NCBI GenBank assembly: GCA_001898645.1
Contig: MKUQ01000030.1
Coordinates: forward strand, 1-64,000
DNA from: Burkholderiales bacterium 70-64
Lineage (GTDB): Bacteria > Pseudomonadota > Gammaproteobacteria > Burkholderiales > Burkholderiaceae_E
Direction of reading: 5' to 3'
DNA length: 64,000 bases
Shown in pieces: positions 6,426 through 16,093 of this stretch. Positions within the stretch are counted from its first letter, which is position 1. Each line of letters begins with the position of its first letter. Below the pieces are notes generated by a model. It made no database searches. It saw only the letters and a list, made by a program, of their open reading frames with translations, and was not told the DNA's origin. The translations under genes were made by a program, and so were the position numbers.

Positions 6426-7754
6426 ATGTCGAATCTGCCGTTCCGTCCCGCTCTCCGGCCCACTGCCGCACCGTGGGCAGACAGGATCGCGGAGTCGCTC
6501 GCCGGGGGTGCCTGTCACCACGAGGCGCCCCCGCAAGCCGCTGTCTGTGGCAGCACCGCTCGCGCGCGCCTGATCGACCTGGATCCGCAGCTGCACTGTT
6601 CGGTGATCGGCACCTGTCTGTCGACCGCCGAGCTGCGCAGGCTGATGCGCAAATTCATGGACGTCGACGATGCGAACGACCTCGAGGTCCACCACGAAGC
6701 GGTGCGGATGGTGTCCCAGCACGCCGGGCTGGGGCGAGCGCTGCACAAGACGCTGGAGCAGCAGCACGGCTCGGCCGTGCAGCGTTTCGGCCGGGCCAGG
6801 GACACCGATGCGCTGATCGCCCTGTGGGAGGAAGCGCTGCGCCAGGGCGAAGTGCCCGGCGCCTACTGGGCGGTGCTCACGCATCGCCGCGTCACGCCTG
6901 CCCTGCGCCAGCGCGTGTTCGGTGATGTCCACATGCTGTCGCACCTGGTGGGTGCCGCCAACCGCGCCGACATCCGGCGCCTGGTCGCGCTCGAGCAGGA
7001 GAACGCCGAGCTGCGCAACCGCGTCGAGCGCCAGCAGGAACGTCTGACCGGGATCGGCGAGGAGCGCGATCGCGCGCTGGCCGAGCGCGACCAGCAGGCG
7101 TGCGAGCTGGTCGGAATGCGCAGCGCGCTGGCCCGGGGCGCGCAAGAGGAGGCCCGGCATCGCGAGACCGCCGCCGAGGTCGCCGCGCTGTCGGCCGCGG
7201 TCGCGGCGCAGACCCGGCGGCGCGAGCAGGCCGAAGGCGCTGCGCTCGCCGCCGGCGCCGACGCGCAGCGGCTCGAGCAGGAGCTGGCGCGCCTGCACGC
7301 CTGTGTCGCGGAGCTGGCGCACGAGCTCGCCGCCGCCGAGACCCAGCTGCGCGAGATGGCGAGCGGCGCCGATGCCGCCGGTTCGACGCTGAGCCGCCTG
7401 TTGCGCGGCCAGCGCGTGCTCTACGTCGGAGGCCGGCCGAGCTCGAACCCGGCCATCCGCGACCTGGTGTTGCGCCACGGCGGCGAATACCAGCGCCACG
7501 ACGGCGGCATCGAGGACCGCAAGGGCCTGCTCGCCTCGGCAGCGGCATGGGCGACGCTGGTGGTGTTCCCGGTCGACTGCATCGACCACGATTCGGCGCT
7601 CGCGCTCAAGCGCATGTGCATGCGCCAGGGCACGCGCTTCGTCGCCCTGCGCAGCGCCGGCGTGGCGAGCTTCGCCAACGGCGTCTCCGCGCTGGAGGCG
7701 GCGGAGATGCGGGCCGGGCTGCCGGCCATGCACCTGTGCCCGAAGCACGGCTAG
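6426..7754 (+). CDS. Coiled-coil protein with C-terminal DUF2325 domain
   Basis: About 442 residues. The N-terminal 170 residues are mostly helical. Residues about 175-325 are an Ala/Glu/Arg/Leu-rich coiled coil (LVALEQENAELRNRVERQQE and onward). The last 95 residues are DUF2325, beginning VLYVGGRPSSNPAIRDLVLR and carrying VVFPVDCIDHDSA and KRMC. DUF2325 is of unknown function, and some members are linked to metal or molybdenum loci. The start may be GTG 6420 or ATG 6426; neither has a strong ribosome-binding site. It is divergent from the ModE-like gene across the ModE box, so it is probably controlled by that regulator. Confidence 0.75.
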   Translation: MSNLPFRPALRPTAAPWADRIAESLAGGACHHEAPPQAAVCGSTARARLIDLDPQLHCSVIGTCLSTAELRRLMRKFMDVDDANDLEVHHEAVRMVSQHAGLGRALHKTLEQQHGSAVQRFGRARDTDALIALWEEALRQGEVPGAYWAVLTHRRVTPALRQRVFGDVHMLSHLVGAANRADIRRLVALEQENAELRNRVERQQERLTGIGEERDRALAERDQQACELVGMRSALARGAQEEARHRETAAEVAALSAAVAAQTRRREQAEGAALAAGADAQRLEQELARLHACVAELAHELAAAETQLREMASGADAAGSTLSRLLRGQRVLYVGGRPSSNPAIRDLVLRHGGEYQRHDGGIEDRKGLLASAAAWATLVVFPVDCIDHDSALALKRMCMRQGTRFVALRSAGVASFANGVSALEAAEMRAGLPAMHLCPKHG

Positions 7755-7781: not shown

Positions 7782-7787
7782 TATACT
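7782..7787 (+). promoter_or_regulatory. Promoter -10 element of the fluoride operon
   Basis: TATACT, a 5 of 6 match to the sigma-70 -10 hexamer, lies 8-9 bp before the first base of the fluoride aptamer, which puts the transcription start at the aptamer's 5' end. No good -35 is visible at 17 bp spacing, so the promoter may be weak or need an activator. Confidence 0.5.
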
Positions 7788-7795
7788 GGCTGTCA

Positions 7796-7846
7796 GTGGA
7801 GATGGCATACCTCCCTTAACCGCCGGTCACGGCTGATGATGCCTAC
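7796..7846 (+). promoter_or_regulatory. Fluoride riboswitch (crcB motif RNA)
   Basis: The conserved parts of the crcB motif are all present and in order: GGAGATGGCATACCTCC (7798-7814), TTAACCGCCGG (7816-7826), and the hallmark 3' segment GGCTGATGATGCCTAC (7831-7846). The aptamer binds fluoride through magnesium ions and turns on downstream genes. It sits 108 bp upstream of crcB, the most common gene it controls. No U-run terminator follows; a Shine-Dalgarno-masking hairpin (7922-7954) suggests translational control. Confidence 0.95.
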
Positions 7847-7850
7847 GCAA

Positions 7851-7866
7851 GGCCCCTGGATGGGCC
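7851..7866 (+). promoter_or_regulatory. Hairpin downstream of the fluoride aptamer
   Basis: GGCCC-CTGGAT-GGGCC forms a 5-bp GC stem 4 nt after the aptamer. It lacks a following T-run, so it is not a classical terminator. It could be a spacer hairpin or part of the switching structure. A second imperfect stem (GGAATCC at 7883-7889 with GGACTCC at 7895-7901) follows. Confidence 0.35.
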
Positions 7867-7921
7867 GGTGTGGGCATTATTCGGAATCCTCTTCGGACTC
7901 CCCGATACGCGCTCGCTGCCG

Positions 7922-7954
7922 GTCGCTCCAGGTCTGTGAAGATGAAGGAGCGAC
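7922..7954 (+). promoter_or_regulatory. Shine-Dalgarno-sequestering hairpin before crcB
   Basis: GTCGCTCC (7922-7929) is perfectly complementary to GGAGCGAC (7947-7954), which contains the GGAG ribosome-binding core and the spacer right up to the crcB ATG at 7955. The 8-bp stem closes a 17-nt loop. It would hide the ribosome-binding site, making it a credible expression platform for the upstream fluoride aptamer. The pairing is seen directly; its regulatory role is inferred. Confidence 0.55.
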
Positions 7955-8353
7955 ATGGACGGTTATCCTTTTCTCGCGGTGTTCGGCGGCGCCGGCCTGG
8001 GCGCCCTGCTGCGCTGGGCTTTCGGTTCCACGCTGAACCCGATCTTCCCGACCATTCCGCTGGGCACCCTGGCCGCCAACCTCCTCGGCGGCCTGCTGGT
8101 GGGCGTGGCCACGGCAGTGTTCCTCCACAAGCCCGGCCTGGCTCCGGAATGGCGGCTGTTCGTGATCACCGGCTTCATGGGCGGGCTGACCACTTTCTCG
8201 ACCTTCTCGGTCGAGGTGGTCTCCCTGCTGGGACGTCGCGAGCCGCTGTGGGCCTTGGGCATGACGGCTCTCCACCTGCTGGGCTCGCTCGCCCTCACCG
8301 CCGCCGGCCTGGTGCTCGGCAGCGCGATCGCGACGGCCGGCACCTACCGTTGA
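7955..8353 (+). CDS. crcB: Fluoride ion channel CrcB/Fluc
   Basis: A 132-residue, four-helix membrane protein of the Fluc family, which exports fluoride as a dual-topology dimer. Family marks include [10 protein letters not shown] (12-21), [10 protein letters not shown] (37-46) with the conserved asparagine, and [10 protein letters not shown] (76-85), which lines the fluoride path. The start ATG follows AAGGAG by 5 nt. It is the first gene behind the fluoride riboswitch and leads a six-gene fluoride-response operon. Confidence 0.97.
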
Positions 8354-8366
8354 AGGGAGGCCTGCG

Positions 8367-8813
8367 ATGGACGGACTCTTTCTGCGCTTCTACGTGCACG
8401 AGAACCAGCGCATCCACCACGTCCTCCTGTGGGAATGGCTGCTGCAGCAGGCCAACCGCATGGGCATCCGCGGCGGCTCCGCCTTCCGCGCCATGGCCGG
8501 CTTCGGCAGCCATCGCGTCCTGCACGAGGATCATTTCTTCGAGCTCGCCGGCACGCTGACCGTGGAGGTCGAGTTCATCGTGACGCAGGACGAGGCGCAG
8601 CGGCTGCTCGCCCTGCTGCGCAGCGAGCGGGTACGCGTGTTCTACGCGCAGATCCCGGCGCAATTCGGCGTGCTCGACGCGGGGGAGGGCGGCGCGGGCA
8701 GCACGGGGAGCGCCGGCGGGACGGGCAGTGCCGATAGCACGAGCGGTACGGGCGGCGCCGGCAACCCCAGCGGAGCCGGCGATGCGGGCAAGCCGACGGG
8801 GAGCGCATCGTGA
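8367..8813 (+). CDS. DUF190 domain protein
   Basis: 148 residues. Residues 1-105 are a DUF190 domain (LFLRFYVHENQRIHHVLLW, then GGSAFRAMAGFGSH), a small ferredoxin-like/PII-like fold often encoded next to crcB. The last 40 residues are a Gly/Ser/Thr/Ala repeat-like tail that is unlikely to be folded. It starts 13 bp after crcB with an AAGGGAGG site, and its stop overlaps the next start (GTGA at 8810-8813). The function is unknown; a regulatory or channel-associated role with CrcB is inferred from recurring linkage. Confidence 0.85.
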   Translation: MDGLFLRFYVHENQRIHHVLLWEWLLQQANRMGIRGGSAFRAMAGFGSHRVLHEDHFFELAGTLTVEVEFIVTQDEAQRLLALLRSERVRVFYAQIPAQFGVLDAGEGGAGSTGSAGGTGSADSTSGTGGAGNPSGAGDAGKPTGSAS

Positions 8814-10027
8814 CCGGGATCTGGGCCCAGGCGGCCCTGTGGCTGGGCCTGGCGCTGGTGGCCACGCTGCTGTCCATCGGCCTGCGGGTGGCCACGGCGC
8901 TGTCCGAGATCGTGGTCGGCACCATCGCGCAACTGCTGATCGGCGCCGCGCTCGGCGGTGTGCTGCTCGCGGGCGACGCCTCGTGGCTGAAGTTCCTCGC
9001 CGGCGCGGGCGCGATCGTGCTCACCTTCCTGGCCGGCGCCGAGCTGGATCCGGCAGTGTTCCGCCACAAGTGGAAGGAGGCCGGCGCAGTCGGGCTGGTG
9101 GGCTTCGTCTCGCCCTTCCTGGTCTGTGCGGCCGCCGCGCACTACCTGCTCGGCTGGTCCACGGACGCCAGCTGGCTGGCTGGCGTGGCGATGTCGACCA
9201 CCTCGGTGGCCGTCGTCTACGCGGTGATGCTGGAGTTCGGCCTGAACCGCACCGACTACGGCAAGACGGTGCTGGCGGCCTGCTTCGTCAACGACCTCGC
9301 CACGGTGCTCGCGCTGGGCTTCCTGTTCTCGCCGTTCAGCCTCAAGACGCTGGTGTTCGTCGCCGTCGCCGTGGTCGTGTTCGCGATCCTGCCGTGGCTC
9401 ACGCCGCGCTTCTTCCACCGCTTCGGCGGGCGCCCCTCGGAGCTCGAAGCCAAGTTCCTCATGCTGTGCCTGTTCGGCATGGGCGCGCTGGCGAGCTGGG
9501 CCGACAGCGAGGCCGTGCTGCCGGCCTACCTGATCGGCATGGTCCTCGCCGGCACCGTGGGCAAGGACCATGCGCTGATCCGCCGGTTGCGCACGCTGAC
9601 CTTCGGGCTGCTCACGCCGTTCTACTTCATCCGCGCCGGATCGCTGGTCTCGGTACCGGCGCTGGTCGCGGCGCCGGCCGGCCTGCTGGTGCTGCTGCTG
9701 ACCAAGATGCTGGCCAAGGTCGTCGGCGTGTACCCGGTCACCAAGCTGTACCGTTCGCCCGATCGCGAGGCGGCGTACACCACGCTGCTGATGTCCACCG
9801 GGCTCACCTTCGGCACGATCTCGGCGCTCTTCGGGCTCTCGCACGGCGTGATCGACGAGGGCCAGTACTCGGCGCTGGTGGCCGCCGTGGTCGGCAGCGC
9901 GGTGGTGCCGACGCTGATCGCCAACGCCTTCTTCATGCCGCGCCACCTGCTCGACGAAGCGGTCGATGCCGGCGACCCGATGCCGCCCGTGGCGCGGCCC
10001 CAGCCATCGGCCAGGAGAGGAACATGA
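8810..10027 (+). CDS. Cation:proton antiporter (CPA family)
   Basis: A 405-residue protein with about 12 transmembrane helices throughout and no C-terminal TrkA domain. It has the GAGAIVLTFLAGAELDP region and polar residues in helix breaks (VAMSTTSVAVVYAVML, CFVNDLATVLALG) typical of CPA-type Na+/H+ antiporters. GTG start at 8810 overlaps the DUF190 stop, and its own stop overlaps the uspA start (ATGA at 10024). Such antiporters are recurrent members of fluoride-riboswitch operons; proton- or sodium-coupled relief of HF-driven acidification is a plausible role. Confidence 0.85.
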   Translation: MTGIWAQAALWLGLALVATLLSIGLRVATALSEIVVGTIAQLLIGAALGGVLLAGDASWLKFLAGAGAIVLTFLAGAELDPAVFRHKWKEAGAVGLVGFVSPFLVCAAAAHYLLGWSTDASWLAGVAMSTTSVAVVYAVMLEFGLNRTDYGKTVLAACFVNDLATVLALGFLFSPFSLKTLVFVAVAVVVFAILPWLTPRFFHRFGGRPSELEAKFLMLCLFGMGALASWADSEAVLPAYLIGMVLAGTVGKDHALIRRLRTLTFGLLTPFYFIRAGSLVSVPALVAAPAGLLVLLLTKMLAKVVGVYPVTKLYRSPDREAAYTTLLMSTGLTFGTISALFGLSHGVIDEGQYSALVAAVVGSAVVPTLIANAFFMPRHLLDEAVDAGDPMPPVARPQPSARRGT

Positions 10028-10476
10028 TCCGCAAGATCCTGCTCGGATACGACGGCTCGCAGGCCGCCGACGACGCCTTCCGTTTCGCGGTCGAGCTCGC
10101 GAAGAAGTACACGGCCGAGCTCCATCTCCTGGCGGTGGCGCGGCCGCCCGAGCTGGGCGACGACGTGGAGACCGAAGCGGTCATCGAGAACTCGCGCCGC
10201 CACTACGACCGGCTGCTGGGCCAGCTCGACGCCCGGCTGGCCGGCGAAGGGGTGGCCGCGCAGGCCCACGTGGTCGTCGGCCATCCGGCCGAGCAGATCG
10301 TGCGCTATGCCGATGCCCACGGCATCGATCACATCGTCGTCGGCCATCGCGGCCACACCCTGTTCGAACGCTGGCTGATCGGCTCGGTCGCCCGGCAGGT
10401 GATCGCCTACGCGCACTGCGCCGTGACCGTGGTACGCACGGCGCAGCCGTCTGCGCAGGCCGGCGGGCGGCAATGA
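10024..10476 (+). CDS. Universal stress protein, ATP-binding type
   Basis: A 150-residue UspA-domain protein. It starts MIRKILLGYDGSQAADDAF, with the family's first strand and Asp, and ends with the nucleotide-binding pattern G-2X-G-9X-G-S (GHRGHTLFERWLIGS, about 116-130), so it should bind ATP. It is translationally coupled to the antiporter by ATGA. Universal stress genes are among those known to be controlled by fluoride riboswitches. Confidence 0.93.
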   Translation: MIRKILLGYDGSQAADDAFRFAVELAKKYTAELHLLAVARPPELGDDVETEAVIENSRRHYDRLLGQLDARLAGEGVAAQAHVVVGHPAEQIVRYADAHGIDHIVVGHRGHTLFERWLIGSVARQVIAYAHCAVTVVRTAQPSAQAGGRQ

Positions 10477-10512
10477 TCCGGCGACGGACACCTCGGAACC
10501 AGGAGCGAAGAC

Positions 10513-11046
10513 ATGGGACTGAACCGCGTCGAGACCGGCCTGAACGTGCCGGAAGACTTCAACGTGATCATCGAGATCCCGATGCTGGCCGATCCGATCA
10601 AGTACGAGGTGGACAAGAAGAGCGGCGCGCTGGTCGTCGACCGCTTCATGTCGACCTCCATGCACTACCCGTGCAACTACGGCTACGTCCCCGGGACGCT
10701 GTGCGGCGACGGCGACCCCCTGGACGTGCTGGTGCTCACTCCCGTGCCCCTGATGATGGGGGTCATCGTGCGTGCCCGTCCGATCGGGCTGCTGCGCATG
10801 CAGGACGAGCACGGCGAGGATGCCAAGGTGCTGGCGGTGCCGGTGAAGGCAGTGTGCGGCGTGTACGACGACGTGCAATCGACGCACGACCTCCCCGCCC
10901 TCCAGCTGCGGCAGATCGAGCACTTCTTCCAGCACTATAAGGACCTGGAGGCGGGCAAGTTCGTGCGGCTGCTCGGCTGGGGCGACCCGCAGGAGGCGCG
11001 CGTCGAGATCCTGCGCGGCGTGCACGCCTACCGGGACGCCGCATAG
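10513..11046 (+). CDS. ppa: Inorganic pyrophosphatase, family I
   Basis: A 177-residue soluble pyrophosphatase that hydrolyses PPi to phosphate with Mg2+. The signature DGDPLD (66-71) is present along with the metal- and substrate-binding residues in VDRFMSTSMHYPCNYGY (42-58). The enzyme is a classic target of fluoride inhibition, so its place as fifth gene of the fluoride operon makes sense: more enzyme compensates for inhibition. A GGAGCG site precedes ATG 10513. It may be the sole ppa or a fluoride-induced extra copy. Confidence 0.95.
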   Translation: MGLNRVETGLNVPEDFNVIIEIPMLADPIKYEVDKKSGALVVDRFMSTSMHYPCNYGYVPGTLCGDGDPLDVLVLTPVPLMMGVIVRARPIGLLRMQDEHGEDAKVLAVPVKAVCGVYDDVQSTHDLPALQLRQIEHFFQHYKDLEAGKFVRLLGWGDPQEARVEILRGVHAYRDAA

Positions 11047-11080
11047 CGGCCCGCGGCAGCGCACACGGCAAGGCGGCCCC

Positions 11081-11551
11081 ATGATCGAGATCCTCGTCCC
11101 GGGCGGCGGCGCGCTGCGCCTGGAGTACCTCGTCGCCGATTTCAACGGCACCCTGGCCGTCGACGCGACGCTGCTGCCCGGGGTGGAGGAGGCGCTGCGC
11201 CGGCTCGCCGGCCGCCTGGCGATCCACGTCGTCACGGCCGATACGCACGGCCGGGCGCGCGAGGCGCTCGCCGGACTGCCGCTCGAGCTGTTCGTCCTGC
11301 CGCCCGGGCCGGGTGCGCCGGCCAAGCGGTATCACGTCGAACGGCTCGGCGCGCATCGCTGCGCGGCCATCGGCAACGGCCGCAACGACTGCGACCTGCT
11401 CTCGGTGGCGGCGCTGGGCATCGCCGTGGTGCAGGCCGAAGGCGCCGCGGCACAGACCCTCGCCGCCGCCGACATCGTGGTGCCCGACATCGGCGCCGCC
11501 CTGGACCTGCTGCTGCATCCGGCGCGCCTCGCCTCCACCCTGCGGCCCTGA
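11081..11551 (+). CDS. HAD-family soluble P-type-ATPase-like phosphatase
   Basis: A 156-residue HAD-fold protein matching the soluble fragment family related to P-type ATPase catalytic domains. Motif I is DFNGTLA (about 20-26), with Asn in place of the usual second Asp. Motif IV is GNGRNDCDLL (about 105-114), as in P-type ATPases. No transmembrane helices or ATP-binding N domain are present. It lies 34 bp after ppa and is probably the last gene of the fluoride operon. The substrate is unknown; a phosphoenzyme-type function linked to magnesium or fluoride stress is speculation. Confidence 0.75.
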   Translation: MIEILVPGGGALRLEYLVADFNGTLAVDATLLPGVEEALRRLAGRLAIHVVTADTHGRAREALAGLPLELFVLPPGPGAPAKRYHVERLGAHRCAAIGNGRNDCDLLSVAALGIAVVQAEGAAAQTLAAADIVVPDIGAALDLLLHPARLASTLRP

Positions 11552-11636: not shown

Positions 11637-13154
11637 TCACGCCGAGGCGCAGGCCGCCTCGTCCTCGAAGATCCTGCGGTACAGATCCTGGCCGAAGCTG
11701 GTCGCCAGCGGCTCGCCCTCGATGAGGCGGAAGGTGCGGGTTCCGTCGGCACGCCGCTCGGCGCGCAGGAACAGCGCATCGTCGTGCCTGCGGACGTGGC
11801 ACTCGTGCGCGAACTGGTACAGGTGAGTGACGAAGAAGATCCGCACGCGCTTCTCCAGCAAGGCCCCGACGATCTGCCGGGCGATCTCGGAACCCTCCCG
11901 CTCGTTGGTCGCGGCGAACGATTCGTTGCACAACAGCATCGAGTTCGGCCGCAGCCGGTCGACGATCCGGTTCATGCGCCCGAGCTCCTCGTCGAGCTTC
12001 CCGCTGCGCAGTGTCGCATCCTCCTCGCGCTTGTAGTGGGTGAACAGGCCGTCGCACAGCTCGCCCTCGAAGGCCTGCGCCGCCACGAACATGCCGGACT
12101 GCATCATCAGCTGCGCCAGGCCGATGCTCCTCAGGAAGCTCGATTTCCCGCCCTGGTTGGCGCCGGTGACGATCACCAGCCTCTTGCCGTCGGCGTTCGC
12201 CGCGTTGCCGACGACGCGCCGCTCCATGCTCAGCGCGAGGCAGGCGTCGTAGAGCCCGCTGAAGGACCGGCGGCGCGCGCCGGCGGGCCAGGGAGTGGGA
12301 AGGACCACGCCCGCCCCTCTCTCCGCGAGACGCTGGTGCAGGTTCAGGCAGCCGACGTAGAAGGCCAGCTCCGCGCGCAGCATCTCGAAGAAGCTCAGGA
12401 CGTGGTCGGTCGACTGGGCGAGCGCGTTGGCCACGAGGTTGATGCCGCGGCCCTGCAGCTGCGACAGCGCGTTGGCGCCCGCCTCGTCGCGATCGGCGAT
12501 GCGGAACACGTAGGCGGGCGGCTTCCTGGCGAACAGGCGCTCCCACCAGCGCTGCCTGCGCGGCGGCGTCCTGCGCACGACGTAGCCGCTCGCCTTGTTG
12601 CCCTTGCCCAGCCCCGCGCTCAGGAGCACCCCCTTGCGGAACCGGAGCTCGGCCAGGTGGTCCTCGATCTCGGCGAAATACGCCTCGCCGAACTCCCTGC
12701 GCAGCAGCGCGAACAGCGTGCAGAAGCCCTCCGAGCGGAACTGTCCGGCGTGCTCGTCGGCGATCGCCTTCAGCTGCCCGATGTGCCCGACGAACATCTG
12801 CAGCAGCTCGATCGCATCGTGCAGGATCACGATCGGGTAGTGGCTGAGGACGCCGAAGAAATGCTTCTTCCTGCCCTCGACCGCCGCCGTCGCGACCCCG
12901 TACAGCGCGCGGACCACCGCGGCGTTCGCCAGGCAGTCGGCGACGATGTGCTGGCGGTGCAGCACTGCTTCCACGTCGTCGTGCAGGCTCGCGAGCATGG
13001 CCTTGCGAGCCACCTCGAGAAGGAAGGGATCGCCGTCGGCCATGGCGCCGAACAGCACCTCCAGCTCCAGGTCCCGGATCAGGTCCTCTCCCTCGGGCGG
13101 CAGTTCCTGCTGCAGATCGAGGTCACGGTCGGGGTACATCAGGAAGGCTTTCAT
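11637..13154 (-). CDS. MutS-like ATPase (second of tandem pair)
   Basis: 505 residues, starting at ATG 13154, which overlaps the upstream gene's stop (ATGA). The C-terminal third is a MutS-type ABC ATPase domain: Walker A GANQGGKSSFLR (about 330), THYKREEDA, Walker B MLLCNESFAATNEREG and FFVTHLYQFAH. The N-terminal part is a helical core/lever region. The mismatch-recognition and connector domains of true MutS are missing. It shares this short layout with its neighbour. MutS-like genes are among those reported next to fluoride riboswitches, and here the pair converges on a fluoride operon. The cellular role is unknown. Confidence 0.85.
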   Translation of the reverse strand: MKAFLMYPDRDLDLQQELPPEGEDLIRDLELEVLFGAMADGDPFLLEVARKAMLASLHDDVEAVLHRQHIVADCLANAAVVRALYGVATAAVEGRKKHFFGVLSHYPIVILHDAIELLQMFVGHIGQLKAIADEHAGQFRSEGFCTLFALLRREFGEAYFAEIEDHLAELRFRKGVLLSAGLGKGNKASGYVVRRTPPRRQRWWERLFARKPPAYVFRIADRDEAGANALSQLQGRGINLVANALAQSTDHVLSFFEMLRAELAFYVGCLNLHQRLAERGAGVVLPTPWPAGARRRSFSGLYDACLALSMERRVVGNAANADGKRLVIVTGANQGGKSSFLRSIGLAQLMMQSGMFVAAQAFEGELCDGLFTHYKREEDATLRSGKLDEELGRMNRIVDRLRPNSMLLCNESFAATNEREGSEIARQIVGALLEKRVRIFFVTHLYQFAHECHVRRHDDALFLRAERRADGTRTFRLIEGEPLATSFGQDLYRRIFEDEAACASA

Positions 13155-14701
13155 GGCGTCACCCGCTGTCCGATCCACGCGGCGGTCAGGCGGTACTTCG
13201 CCGCGATCGCCAGCGCATAGGAAAGCCCGTCGGCCGGCCGGCGTTCGAGCCTGAAGGTGCGCACCGTCGGATCCTCGGCGTCGACCGCGCTCACCATGCT
13301 CACGGTCTTCTCGTCGAACGACGCCAGCTCGTCCATGAAGGTGACGCACACGCACAGCGCGTCCAGCGCCGAGATCCTCGCCATCACCTTCCTGCCCAGC
13401 CACACCGCGTCCTCGAGCGTGGTGGACGAGAAGATCTCGTTCATCACCACGACGCTCGCAGGCGTCGCCCGGTCGAGGATGCGGCGTATCCTCGTCAGGT
13501 CGTCCTGCAGCTTGCCGTGCAGGTTGGCGATGTCCTCTTCCCGCTCGAAATGCGTGAACAGGCGGTCGAAGAGGAACAGACGCGCCTGCGCGGCCGGCAC
13601 CGGCAGGCCCAGGCAGGCCAGGTAGTGCAGCTGGCCGAAGGTGCGGGCGAAGGTGGTCTTGCCGCCCTGGTTGGGGCCCGACACGACGAAGATGCGCTCG
13701 GGGTCGCGCAGGAAGAAGTCGTTGCGCACCACGGACAGGCCGTCGCGCGCGAGGCGATCGGCCAACGCGAGGTCGAAGGCCGCGCGGACCTCGATGTCCT
13801 TGCGCTCGCCCGAGAGCTGCGGATAGCAGAACTCCAGGCCGCCCCGCCTGAAGGTGTCGGCGTGCTCGAGGAAGGCCAGGTAGAACTGCACCTCGCGATC
13901 GAACCGCTCGATCGCCGGATCCAGGTAGTCGCGGTGATCGGCGCAGCAGGCGTCGAGCGCGCGGAACGCCTCGGGCTCGAGCTGCGCCACGAGGTCCAGG
14001 ATGCCGGCCTCGACGTGGTTCATGCCGGGCCAGTCCGAGTACTTCACCCGGTAGTCGCTCACCGCTCCCTGCCTGAACTTGGCGAACGTCTCCTCGACCG
14101 CGGCGCTGTAGTCGATCTCGCCGTCGTAGCGGCTGACGACCACGGCGTTGCCGTGGATCCGCATGCAGTAGCGGATCGCGGCCAGGCCGGCCTTCACTGC
14201 CTCGACCTGCCCCGGCAACGGGGCGAAGCGGGCGGATTGCACGTATTGCGACAGGTATTGCCGCAGCCCCGACAGCCCGCGTGATCGCACCGCCAGCCGC
14301 TCCAGGTCGCGCGCGAGGCCGGCGACGGCGCCGCAGTACGTTTCGATCGCGTCGAGGAACCAGCGCTCCTTCTCGTAGGGGTAGTGCAGCTTCTCCGCCT
14401 GCGCGCGCTGCTCGCGCATCGTGCGCATCGCCTCCGCGAAGGCGCCGATGGCCTGCCGCGCGTCCTCGCGCTCCAGCTCGCGCATCACTTCCTGGCGATA
14501 GGCGATCGCGTCGAGGTCATCCAGGCGCGCGTGGAAGAAGGGCTCGAGCCGGTATTCCGCGCGCCGTGCGGCAACGGCCGCGATGATCAGGTCGAGGCCG
14601 AGGTCGTGGAAGAAGTCGGGCGCCTCGGGCGCGGGCGACAGCGCCTCATCTCCGGGGCGCGGGAACAGGATGCTGCGAAAACCGCATGGCGCTTCGTTCA
14701 T
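13151..14701 (-). CDS. MutS-like ATPase (first of tandem pair)
   Basis: 516 residues with a helical N-terminal two-thirds and a C-terminal MutS ATPase domain: Walker A GPNQGGKTTFAR (about 340), the FDRLFTHFEREEDI segment, and Walker B SVVVMNEIFSSTTLEDA. As in its neighbour, the DNA mismatch-binding domain is absent and there is no Smr domain, so it is neither MutS1 nor MutS2. The two products are clearly related but diverged, suggesting an old duplication and perhaps a heterodimer. ATG 14701 is the natural family-like start. It is divergent from the MFS gene. Confidence 0.85.
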   Translation of the reverse strand: MNEAPCGFRSILFPRPGDEALSPAPEAPDFFHDLGLDLIIAAVAARRAEYRLEPFFHARLDDLDAIAYRQEVMRELEREDARQAIGAFAEAMRTMREQRAQAEKLHYPYEKERWFLDAIETYCGAVAGLARDLERLAVRSRGLSGLRQYLSQYVQSARFAPLPGQVEAVKAGLAAIRYCMRIHGNAVVVSRYDGEIDYSAAVEETFAKFRQGAVSDYRVKYSDWPGMNHVEAGILDLVAQLEPEAFRALDACCADHRDYLDPAIERFDREVQFYLAFLEHADTFRRGGLEFCYPQLSGERKDIEVRAAFDLALADRLARDGLSVVRNDFFLRDPERIFVVSGPNQGGKTTFARTFGQLHYLACLGLPVPAAQARLFLFDRLFTHFEREEDIANLHGKLQDDLTRIRRILDRATPASVVVMNEIFSSTTLEDAVWLGRKVMARISALDALCVCVTFMDELASFDEKTVSMVSAVDAEDPTVRTFRLERRPADGLSYALAIAAKYRLTAAWIGQRVTP

Positions 14702-14866
14702 TCGCGTGCCTCCACGCCCAAGCGGGCGGTGCAGGCATCATCAGCCGTTGCGGCGGTTTCGCGAATGCGGGAGGAATGCCATCTCCCTCGTCCAAGTGTA
14801 CGACGGCCGCATCCGCCGAGCAACGCCGGCATACTGCGGAGCATCGAGAATCACCCGGGCCATCCG

Positions 14867-16093
14867 TTGACCGCCGCAACCGCTCCGCACGAACGCCTCG
14901 CCGCCGGCTCGCCCGCCTTTCGCCGGGTCAACCTGGCGATGTTCGTCGGCGGCTATGCGAGCTTTGCCATGCTCTACGGCACGCAGCCGCTGCTGCCGCT
15001 GTTCTCAGCCGAGTTCGCGCTCGATCCGGCGACCGCCAGCCTGGCGGTCTCGGCGGGCACCGCGGGGCTGGCGCTGATGCTGATCCCGGCCAGCGTGCTG
15101 TCGGACCGCTTCGGGCGCGTGCGCCTGATGAAGCTCTCGCTCGCCATCGCCGCCCTCGTCTGCGCCGCCTCGGCGGCAGTGGCGGACTTCGCCCAGCTGC
15201 TGCTGCTGCGCGCGCTGCTGGGGGTGGCCATCGCGGGCCTGCCGGCCGCCGCGGTGGCCTACCTGGCCGAGGAGGTGGCGCCGGCGGCCCAGGGCCGCGC
15301 CATGGGCCTGTACATCGGCGGCAACGCGCTGGGCGGCATGAGCGGGCGGTTCCTGGCCGCCCTGGTCACCGAAGGCGGATCCTGGCGCCTGGCCCTGGCG
15401 CTGCTGGGCGCGCTCGGCGTGGTGGCCGCGGTGCTGTTCTGGCAACGGCTGCCGGCCTCGCACCACTTCCGGCCGCGCGACGCAGCGATCGGCCGCATCC
15501 TGCACGATGCGCGCGCGATGCTGGCCGACCCCGGCCTGCCCTGGCTGTTCCTGATCGGCTTCCTGCTGATGGGCACCTTCATCGCGCTCTACAACTATCT
15601 CGCCTATCGCCTGCTCGCAGCGCCCTATCACCTGGGGCAGTCCGCGATCGGCGCGATATACCTGCTCTACCTGCTGGGCAGCGCAGCCTCGGCCTTCGCC
15701 GGACGCCTGGCCGACCGCCATGGCCGGCGCAACGTGCTGTGGATCATGCTGGTGCTGCTGGCGGCAGGCCTGGCCGCGACCCTGGCGGCCCCCATGGCGG
15801 CCATCGTCGCCGGCGTGGCGCTGAGCACCTTCGGCTTCTTCGCGGCCCACTCCCTGGCCAGCGGCTGGGTGGCACGGCGCGCCCCCGAGCGCCCGGCGCT
15901 GGCGGCCGCCCTGTACCTGTGCGGCTATTACCTCGGCGCCAGCATCATCGGCACCGTGGCAGGGAAGGCCTGGAGCGCGGGCGGCTGGCCGGGCCTGGTG
16001 GCGATGCTCATGGCGTGCACGCTGGCGATGATCGTCGCGGCGCTGCGCGCGCGCCGGGCCGCCATCGTCCGTCCTGCACCCAGTGAATACTGA
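14867..16093 (+). CDS. MFS transporter
   Basis: About 408 residues with 12 transmembrane helices and the MFS loop motif DRFGRVRLMK between helices 2 and 3, repeated in weaker form (GRLADRHGRRN) between helices 8 and 9. It resembles the YnfM/arabinose-efflux-like group. The start is uncertain: TTG 14867 is placed just before the conserved N-terminus, but ATG 14765 in frame is also possible, and no ribosome-binding site is clear. The substrate is unknown. The hydratase and CitE-like genes follow at 37-79 bp, so organic acid transport is a reasonable guess. Confidence 0.8.
   Translation: MTAATAPHERLAAGSPAFRRVNLAMFVGGYASFAMLYGTQPLLPLFSAEFALDPATASLAVSAGTAGLALMLIPASVLSDRFGRVRLMKLSLAIAALVCAASAAVADFAQLLLLRALLGVAIAGLPAAAVAYLAEEVAPAAQGRAMGLYIGGNALGGMSGRFLAALVTEGGSWRLALALLGALGVVAAVLFWQRLPASHHFRPRDAAIGRILHDARAMLADPGLPWLFLIGFLLMGTFIALYNYLAYRLLAAPYHLGQSAIGAIYLLYLLGSAASAFAGRLADRHGRRNVLWIMLVLLAAGLAATLAAPMAAIVAGVALSTFGFFAAHSLASGWVARRAPERPALAAALYLCGYYLGASIIGTVAGKAWSAGGWPGLVAMLMACTLAMIVAALRARRAAIVRPAPSEY

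Follow-up and report, generated by a model that had tools for sequence, protein, structure and literature searches.

Which genes, apart from that for a fluoride exporter, does a bacterium keep under the control of fluoride, and what might they contribute? The stretch of DNA analysed here (the window) comprises 64,000 nucleotides of Burkholderiales bacterium 70-64 (contig MKUQ01000030.1 of GCA_001898645.1, positions 1-64,000). It contains two convergent gene units, 7789-11551 on the plus strand and 14795-11637 on the minus strand, each headed by a fluoride riboswitch. We consider it likely that the two together are a horizontally acquired fluoride-resistance island working by the mechanism proposed below. 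An earlier sequence-only reading of this DNA had recognised the six genes of the first unit as an operon behind a fluoride aptamer, and had overlooked the second riboswitch (14725-14795, minus strand) together with the pair of MutS-like genes that follows it.

Two convergent riboswitch units

The units are composed of the following features.

7789-7852, plus strand: fluoride riboswitch aptamer 1 (RF01734), 52.7 bits across the full 64-position model, with an E-value of 9.4e-12 for the window
7804-7808 (GGCAU) with 7839-7843 (AUGCC), plus strand: pseudoknot of aptamer 1, from the Rfam alignment by eye
7833-7884, plus strand: alternative hairpin that consumes the 3' pseudoknot strand (expression platform), from folding of 7828-7900
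7955-8353, plus strand: crcB (Fluc fluoride channel), 132 residues, PF02537 at 91.1 bits (cut-off 32.9), TIGR00494 and NF010792 over cut-off
8367-8813, plus strand: DUF190 protein, 148 residues, PF02641 at 67.1 bits (cut-off 23.4)
8810-10027, plus strand: CPA2-type cation:proton antiporter, 405 residues, PF00999 at 130.1 bits (cut-off 26.2)
10024-10476, plus strand: universal stress protein (usp), 150 residues, PF00582 at 120.3 bits
10513-11046, plus strand: family I inorganic pyrophosphatase, 177 residues, PF00719 at 185 bits, NF002317 at 255.5 bits (cut-off 200)
11081-11551, plus strand: small HAD-fold protein, 156 residues, with motifs D20-x-N22-G-T and G-N99-G-x-N102-D103
11637-13154, minus strand: MutS-like ATPase 2, 505 residues, start ATG at 13154, PF00488 (MutS_V) at 65.4 bits, Walker A GANQGGKS
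13151-14701, minus strand: MutS-like ATPase 1, 516 residues, PF00488 (MutS_V) at 60.4 bits, Walker A GPNQGGKT
14707-14737, minus strand: hairpin after aptamer 2, in which the AUGCC region of that aptamer pairs with a Shine-Dalgarno-like GGAGG (14709-14713)
14725-14795, minus strand: fluoride riboswitch aptamer 2 (RF01734), 48.2 bits, pseudoknot GGCAU/AUGCC as in aptamer 1

The aptamer proposed earlier at 7796-7846 lies within the first covariance-model match, and both matches score above the RF01734 gathering threshold of 34 bits. By eye, the pseudoknot strands of both aptamers depart from the Rfam consensus (GGaGU/ACUCC) on both sides while keeping their pairing, which joins the P1 loop to the 3' strand. 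Each aptamer is followed by a hairpin that competes with its pseudoknot. The fold of 7828-7900, from which the first hairpin is taken, has an energy of -35.0 kcal/mol (z -4.43, 0 of 200 shuffles), and the second hairpin (z -2.44, 3 of 200 shuffles) pairs four of the five bases of the GGAGG that precedes the first mutS-like gene. We infer a transcriptional switch for the first unit and a translational one for the second, and fluoride would be expected to regulate both units, each as a single transcript.

Open reading frames were called mechanically. All six genes of the earlier reading are present in the first unit; Pfam names five of them over cut-off (CRCB, DUF190, Na_H_Exchanger, Usp, Pyrophosphatase), and the sixth is a HAD protein that matches PF00702 below cut-off (23.2 against 26.4 bits). 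The couplings described earlier are also there, with the antiporter overlapping DUF190 by four bases (GTGA, 8810-8813) and usp overlapping the antiporter by four (ATGA, 10024-10027). The two MutS-like genes likewise overlap by four bases and run toward the six-gene unit.

Recurrence of the modules and transfer

Homologues were sought with phmmer, using the window proteins as queries. The analysis covered a sample of 200 genomes of the order, a class sample of 369 genomes, a wider collection (22 HAD loci) and plasmid records; gene names at riboswitch loci and in plasmid regions are best-query labels, and loci, genomes and contigs are cited by our own handles (L, G and C). RF01734 was found in 41 of the 200 order genomes, over cut-off in 33, by a search with stricter filters. 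Surroundings were retrieved for the 44 over-cut-off sites outside the genome of strain 70-64, which make up 40 stretches. Looking up to 5 kb downstream on the strand of each site, we find crcB after 15 of the 44, DUF190 after 14, the CPA2 antiporter after 10, Usp after 9 and the HAD protein after 3. Runs of crcB-DUF190-CPA2-usp recur at four loci (L074, L095, L119, L120), and usp is followed by the HAD gene at L068 and L015. The earlier view of co-directional, fluoride-linked genes behind a fluoride riboswitch thus holds, and comparable runs recur, so that the operon is not as unusually complete as that view had it.

The same modules occur on plasmids, some of them predicted to be conjugative. 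Regions were opened for 4 of the 38 plasmid records with the antiporter, 3 of 5 with the HAD protein and 6 of 48 with the MutS pair. Behind RF01734 matches stand antiporter-usp-mutS-mutS in Klebsiella (L131) and Citrobacter (L139), HAD-pyrophosphatase plus mutS-mutS in Burkholderia (L134, L136) and mutS-mutS in Caballeronia (L137). These islands differ from the window in order and strand, and its exact six-gene order was found in no opened region. Since the single run of L131 and L139 unites genes of both units of the window, the most fitting view of these units is that of one fluoride island. The sample also includes the two other genomes of the genus and three of the family, and these contained no RF01734 match, HAD protein, MutS pair, DUF190 or antiporter of this type, an absence that suggests that the island was acquired by horizontal transfer.

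The genome of strain 70-64 has four RF01734 sites in all. The other two lie head to head on contig C60 (L005; 7367-7428, minus strand, and 7482-7543, plus strand), and the genes that they face encode a membrane protein of the CNNM family (PF01595) and a 455-residue protein weakly similar to DUF6062.

Further gene types stand beside fluoride riboswitches elsewhere. On the two Burkholderia plasmids, four riboswitches lie within 8.4 kb (L134, 7076-15428; L136, 7078-15473) and precede a hydrogenase/complex I-like run, the HAD-pyrophosphatase pair, a hypothetical-dynamin pair and the MutS pair. Fluoride islands repeatedly carry dynamin-family GTPases, at L065 and L092 (by Pfam) and at L134 and L136 (by record annotation); our literature search returned no paper combining "fluoride riboswitch" with "dynamin". 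Complex I-like or formate hydrogenlyase-like genes stand behind riboswitches at L084, L092, L137 and other loci, and at L084 such a run ends with the HAD gene. Seven of the 44 riboswitches have a HIT-domain-like protein no more than 5 kb downstream (L065, L068, L070, L074, L082, L092, L095), a label checked with Pfam at L065 and L092 only. Hint and Fhit enzymes split adenylyl fluoridate.

The antiporter and DUF190

At E <= 1e-80 the antiporter was found in 11 of the 200 order genomes, the other ten copies being 73-81% identical to that of the window. For ten of the eleven, the window's among them, a riboswitch precedes the gene by 77-1261 bases, and on plasmids a riboswitch lies just upstream in all four opened regions that hold the antiporter. 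The eleventh copy (G103) is preceded by crcB-DUF190 with no RF01734 match. This cassette (G103:C19:107713-109611) may contain a diverged riboswitch, or one missed under the stricter filters of the large search. Judged by these counts, the antiporter is a member of a dedicated subfamily; the term CPA2-type expresses similarity only, because its score against the NCBIfam CPA2 subfamily TIGR00932 is under cut-off (110.8 against 238.3 bits).

DUF190, which the earlier reading had left as an unexplained part of the operon, is by context a usual follower of crcB with or without a riboswitch. The 200 order genomes hold 81 copies in 67 genomes, and comparison of these 81 places with 66 of the listed crcB places and 48 over-cut-off riboswitches put at least 60 of the 81 behind a co-directional crcB, at a distance of no more than 800 bases. 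For 48 of these crcB-following copies there is no over-cut-off riboswitch within 5 kb, a pairing by which DUF190 is connected with fluoride export irrespective of the riboswitch. At three sites where crcB is absent (G132, G030, G023), DUF190 stands between the riboswitch and the antiporter. From this genomic context DUF190 is a putative partner of crcB. Solved relatives of the protein include 1o51 and 2dcl. Our literature search returned no paper combining "fluoride riboswitch" with "DUF190", and the PII-like character that DUF190 may have, that of a trimeric nucleotide-binding sensor, did not come up in the literature searched. The DUF190 protein of the window has a Gly/Ser/Thr-rich C-terminal tail (8660-8813) not shown by the other DUF190 rows in alignment A2.

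The HAD protein and the pyrophosphatase

The earlier reading described the last gene of the six as a soluble, P-type-ATPase-like HAD protein. That similarity is weak. The AlphaFold2 model (pLDDT 93.8) has capless KdsC/YrbI HADs as its closest solved folds (best E 3.3e-7, TM score 0.72 on the query), with an identity of 16-19% to the top matches. The nucleophile D20, T52 of motif II, K82 of motif III and D103 are invariant in alignment A1, so the protein has the nucleophile Asp, Thr and Lys that characterise the HAD fold. Motif I reads DxNGT instead of the phosphatase consensus DxDx[TV], with Asn at the place of the second Asp of the KdsC/YrbI phosphatases, and motif IV reads GNGxND; both motifs are present in 23 of 23 rows of A1. 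Because the search patterns that led to loci L006-L027 contain the motif letters, these loci alone are no proof of invariance. The 16 copies from the order and class searches are free of this bias, and both motifs occur in all 15 of them that cover the column as well as in the three opened plasmid copies. A fragment of a P-type ATPase was rejected as an identity for the protein (DFNGT against DKTGT; TIGR01525 at 22.6 against 346.25 bits), as was a haloacid dehalogenase acting on organofluorine, given a motif I of the DxN type and not DxYGT. As far as these motifs tell, the protein falls outside the canonical HAD phosphatases, the P-type ATPases and the haloacid dehalogenases. With the nucleophile, the Thr and the Lys retained and motifs I and IV changed, an altered phosphoryl chemistry is expected.

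In the order, seven copies of the HAD gene were found in 6 of the 200 genomes, and six of the seven have a riboswitch no farther than 12 kb away, where about 0.012 would be expected at an assumed 3.5 Mb per genome. Chance co-location is thereby rejected for the order, and not for the wider family, which is mostly unlinked. On each of the two Burkholderia plasmids about 115 bases separate the end of a riboswitch from the HAD gene, and the pyrophosphatase gene starts 14 bases after the latter. In the third opened plasmid region (L135) the HAD gene follows usp, with no riboswitch match.

The pyrophosphatase of the window is not the only one of its kind in the genome. A second full-length family I enzyme (C46) is 58% identical to it over 177 residues. 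A partial pyrophosphatase-like match lies within a larger open reading frame at G000:C27:74256-74444.

The MutS-like pair

In each of the two MutS-like proteins, MutS_V (domain V) is the sole Pfam match at E <= 0.01, and Pfam gave no match to domain I of MutS. The MutS family profile reaches 54.6 and 76.1 bits against a cut-off of 480, and all NCBIfam matches of the pair are far under cut-off; the best for the second protein is KamC, an aminomutase reactivase ATPase (63.2 against 300 bits). An AlphaFold2 model of the first protein, made without an alignment, had a pLDDT of 34.0 and was set aside.

The pair was found in 3 of the 200 order genomes, all three of which also carry the HAD protein, and at two further loci with HAD and riboswitch (L007, L022). 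It was matched in 48 plasmid records, and a riboswitch lies ahead of it in five of the six regions opened, directly in L134, L136 and L137 and with antiporter-usp between in L131 and L139. The sixth region, L138, has no riboswitch ahead of the pair and one only ahead of crcB. A literature search for MutS in connection with fluoride and riboswitches listed four papers, which seem to bear on other subjects.

An open reading frame at 14686-16086 (plus strand), MFS-transporter-like by sequence and with a provisional start, diverges from the MutS unit and overlaps riboswitch 2 on the opposite strand. It gave no match at E <= 1e-4 to MFS queries from two other islands.

Relation to known systems

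The closest published system is the six-gene fluoride-riboswitch operon of Enterobacter cloacae FRM (ppaC, uspA, eno, gpmA, crcB, orf5249), described with reverse transcription PCR and knockouts (PMC5533749), which is a further reason not to call the present operon unusually complete. Like the first unit of the window, it has one RF01734 riboswitch and six genes that include crcB, uspA and a pyrophosphatase, and it is reported to be a horizontally acquired island. Antiporter, DUF190, HAD and MutS pair are all missing from the gene list, as given in the available part of that article, and the PpaC of the operon is of the DHHA2 type (PMC5971314, available in part), unlike the PF00719 enzyme of the window. 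In the accessible portions of the wider literature, mutS is named behind the crcB motif by Weinberg et al. 2010 (PMC2864571), and antiporters, pyrophosphatase, HADs, enolase and formate hydrogenlyase are named as riboswitch-associated in a review (PMC11139923). That published set shares crcB, antiporters, pyrophosphatase, HADs and mutS with the window, and those portions contain neither DUF190 nor the order of modules seen here. The kind of system is therefore already known. New here are this variant, the counts and the motif of the HAD protein; the analysis puts figures on the antiporter subfamily, on the pairing of DUF190 with crcB and on the HAD motif.

A proposed mechanism

We propose that an aptamer with bound Mg-fluoride would retain its pseudoknot and thereby block the competing hairpin. 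In the first unit, transcription would then proceed into crcB, DUF190, the antiporter, usp, the pyrophosphatase gene and the HAD gene; in the second, the MutS-like pair would gain a free ribosome-binding site. The roles that follow go beyond family assignment and are conditional. CrcB would export fluoride, and the dedicated CPA2 antiporter may offset the acid and cation load that comes with HF entry. CrcB or the antiporter may have a small regulatory partner in DUF190, and Usp would be a stress protein. The pyrophosphatase could serve as an inducible spare for a fluoride-sensitive enzyme, with the HAD protein as its partner in phosphoryl chemistry, probably via an aspartyl-phosphate. Since motif I has Asn in place of its second Asp, we propose that this aspartyl-phosphate would not be turned over in the canonical way.

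Alternative explanations

Several observations weigh against this interpretation. The entire 142-nucleotide first leader is less exceptional than its hairpin (z -1.83, 7 of 200 shuffles), as is a longer fragment of the second leader (z -1.53, 15 of 200 shuffles). The first hairpin has no T run, which makes the switching step of that unit uncertain, and a consensus scan of both leaders found no sigma-70-like promoter and no intrinsic terminator. Linkage of the HAD gene to the riboswitch weakens outside the order. The HAD protein was found in 11 of the 369 genomes of the class sample, the genome of strain 70-64 among them, and only two of the other ten are riboswitch-linked (G331 and G443, with the riboswitch 3.4 and 3.6 kb away on the opposite strand); G464 has its riboswitch on another contig, G346 and G494 have sub-threshold matches, and five have no match. 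In the wider collection 3 of 22 HAD loci are linked (L007, L015, L022) and 15 of the 22 genomes are without an RF01734 match; the neighbourhoods of ten of these loci with HADs away from riboswitches showed no recurring gene by eye in an unannotated listing. On the tree, riboswitch-linked HADs are clustered and do not form one clade (6 label changes against 9.6 when shuffled). The pyrophosphatase is present in none of the 40 other riboswitch loci of the order sample. Along with the many DUF190-crcB pairs away from any riboswitch, these HAD and pyrophosphatase counts would suit an operon in which the fluoride genes are crcB and perhaps DUF190, and the antiporter, usp, pyrophosphatase and HAD genes are ordinary downstream genes. 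We hold this to be improbable in view of the riboswitch linkage of ten of eleven antiporters, the riboswitch ahead of the antiporter in all four plasmid regions, the two plasmids on which the HAD gene leads a riboswitch unit of its own, and the E. cloacae FRM precedent, in which reverse transcription PCR, as described in the available part of that article, demonstrates a multigene riboswitch operon. For the MutS-like pair, induction of DNA mismatch repair by fluoride stress would agree with the suggestion of DNA damage that accompanies the mutS genes in the accessible text of Weinberg et al. Domain V is all that Pfam sees in either protein, and the profile scores lie well under cut-off, with KamC the best match of the second; we judge mismatch repair an unlikely function.

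Within the fluoride island that we favour, the HAD protein admits three further readings. That it is an ordinary HAD phosphatase, restoring phosphate or repairing fluoride-inhibited phosphoryl transfer, accords with the predicted KdsC-like fold and with the review PMC11139923, whose available text calls HADs often riboswitch-associated and reads them as phosphoesterases; the Asn that replaces the second Asp of motif I in every copy of the three sets examined speaks against it, and we consider this reading possible and rather unlikely. The same Asn, together with that at the first position of the acidic pair of motif IV and the adjacency to the pyrophosphatase in the window and on two plasmids, could instead mark a catalytically dead protein that binds a phosphate analogue or metal fluoride, for example as a regulator of the pyrophosphatase. 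The invariance of D20, T52, K82 and D103 argues for retained chemistry, and a dead protein appears doubtful. Cellular kinases can transfer fluoride to phosphate in a fluorokinase side reaction, and haloacid dehalogenases, which act on a halide leaving group, also do without the acid Asp of motif I. A fluoride leaving group needs no general acid, which would explain the change from Asp to Asn if the HAD protein were a fluoride-specific hydrolase of the P-F bond, a fluorophosphatase, in partnership with the pyrophosphatase. This we regard as a very long shot; if true, Asn for Asp would mark a dedicated enzyme class that travels with fluoride islands.

Implications

Fluoride tolerance is usually put down to export alone. 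The linkage counted here singles out an antiporter subfamily, a DUF190 partner of CrcB, an altered-motif HAD protein beside a pyrophosphatase, and a pair of MutS-like ATPases without recognisable mismatch-binding domains. If the HAD protein or the MutS-like pair has a fluoride-specific chemistry, it would reveal an as yet unnamed type of fluoride damage that cells repair.

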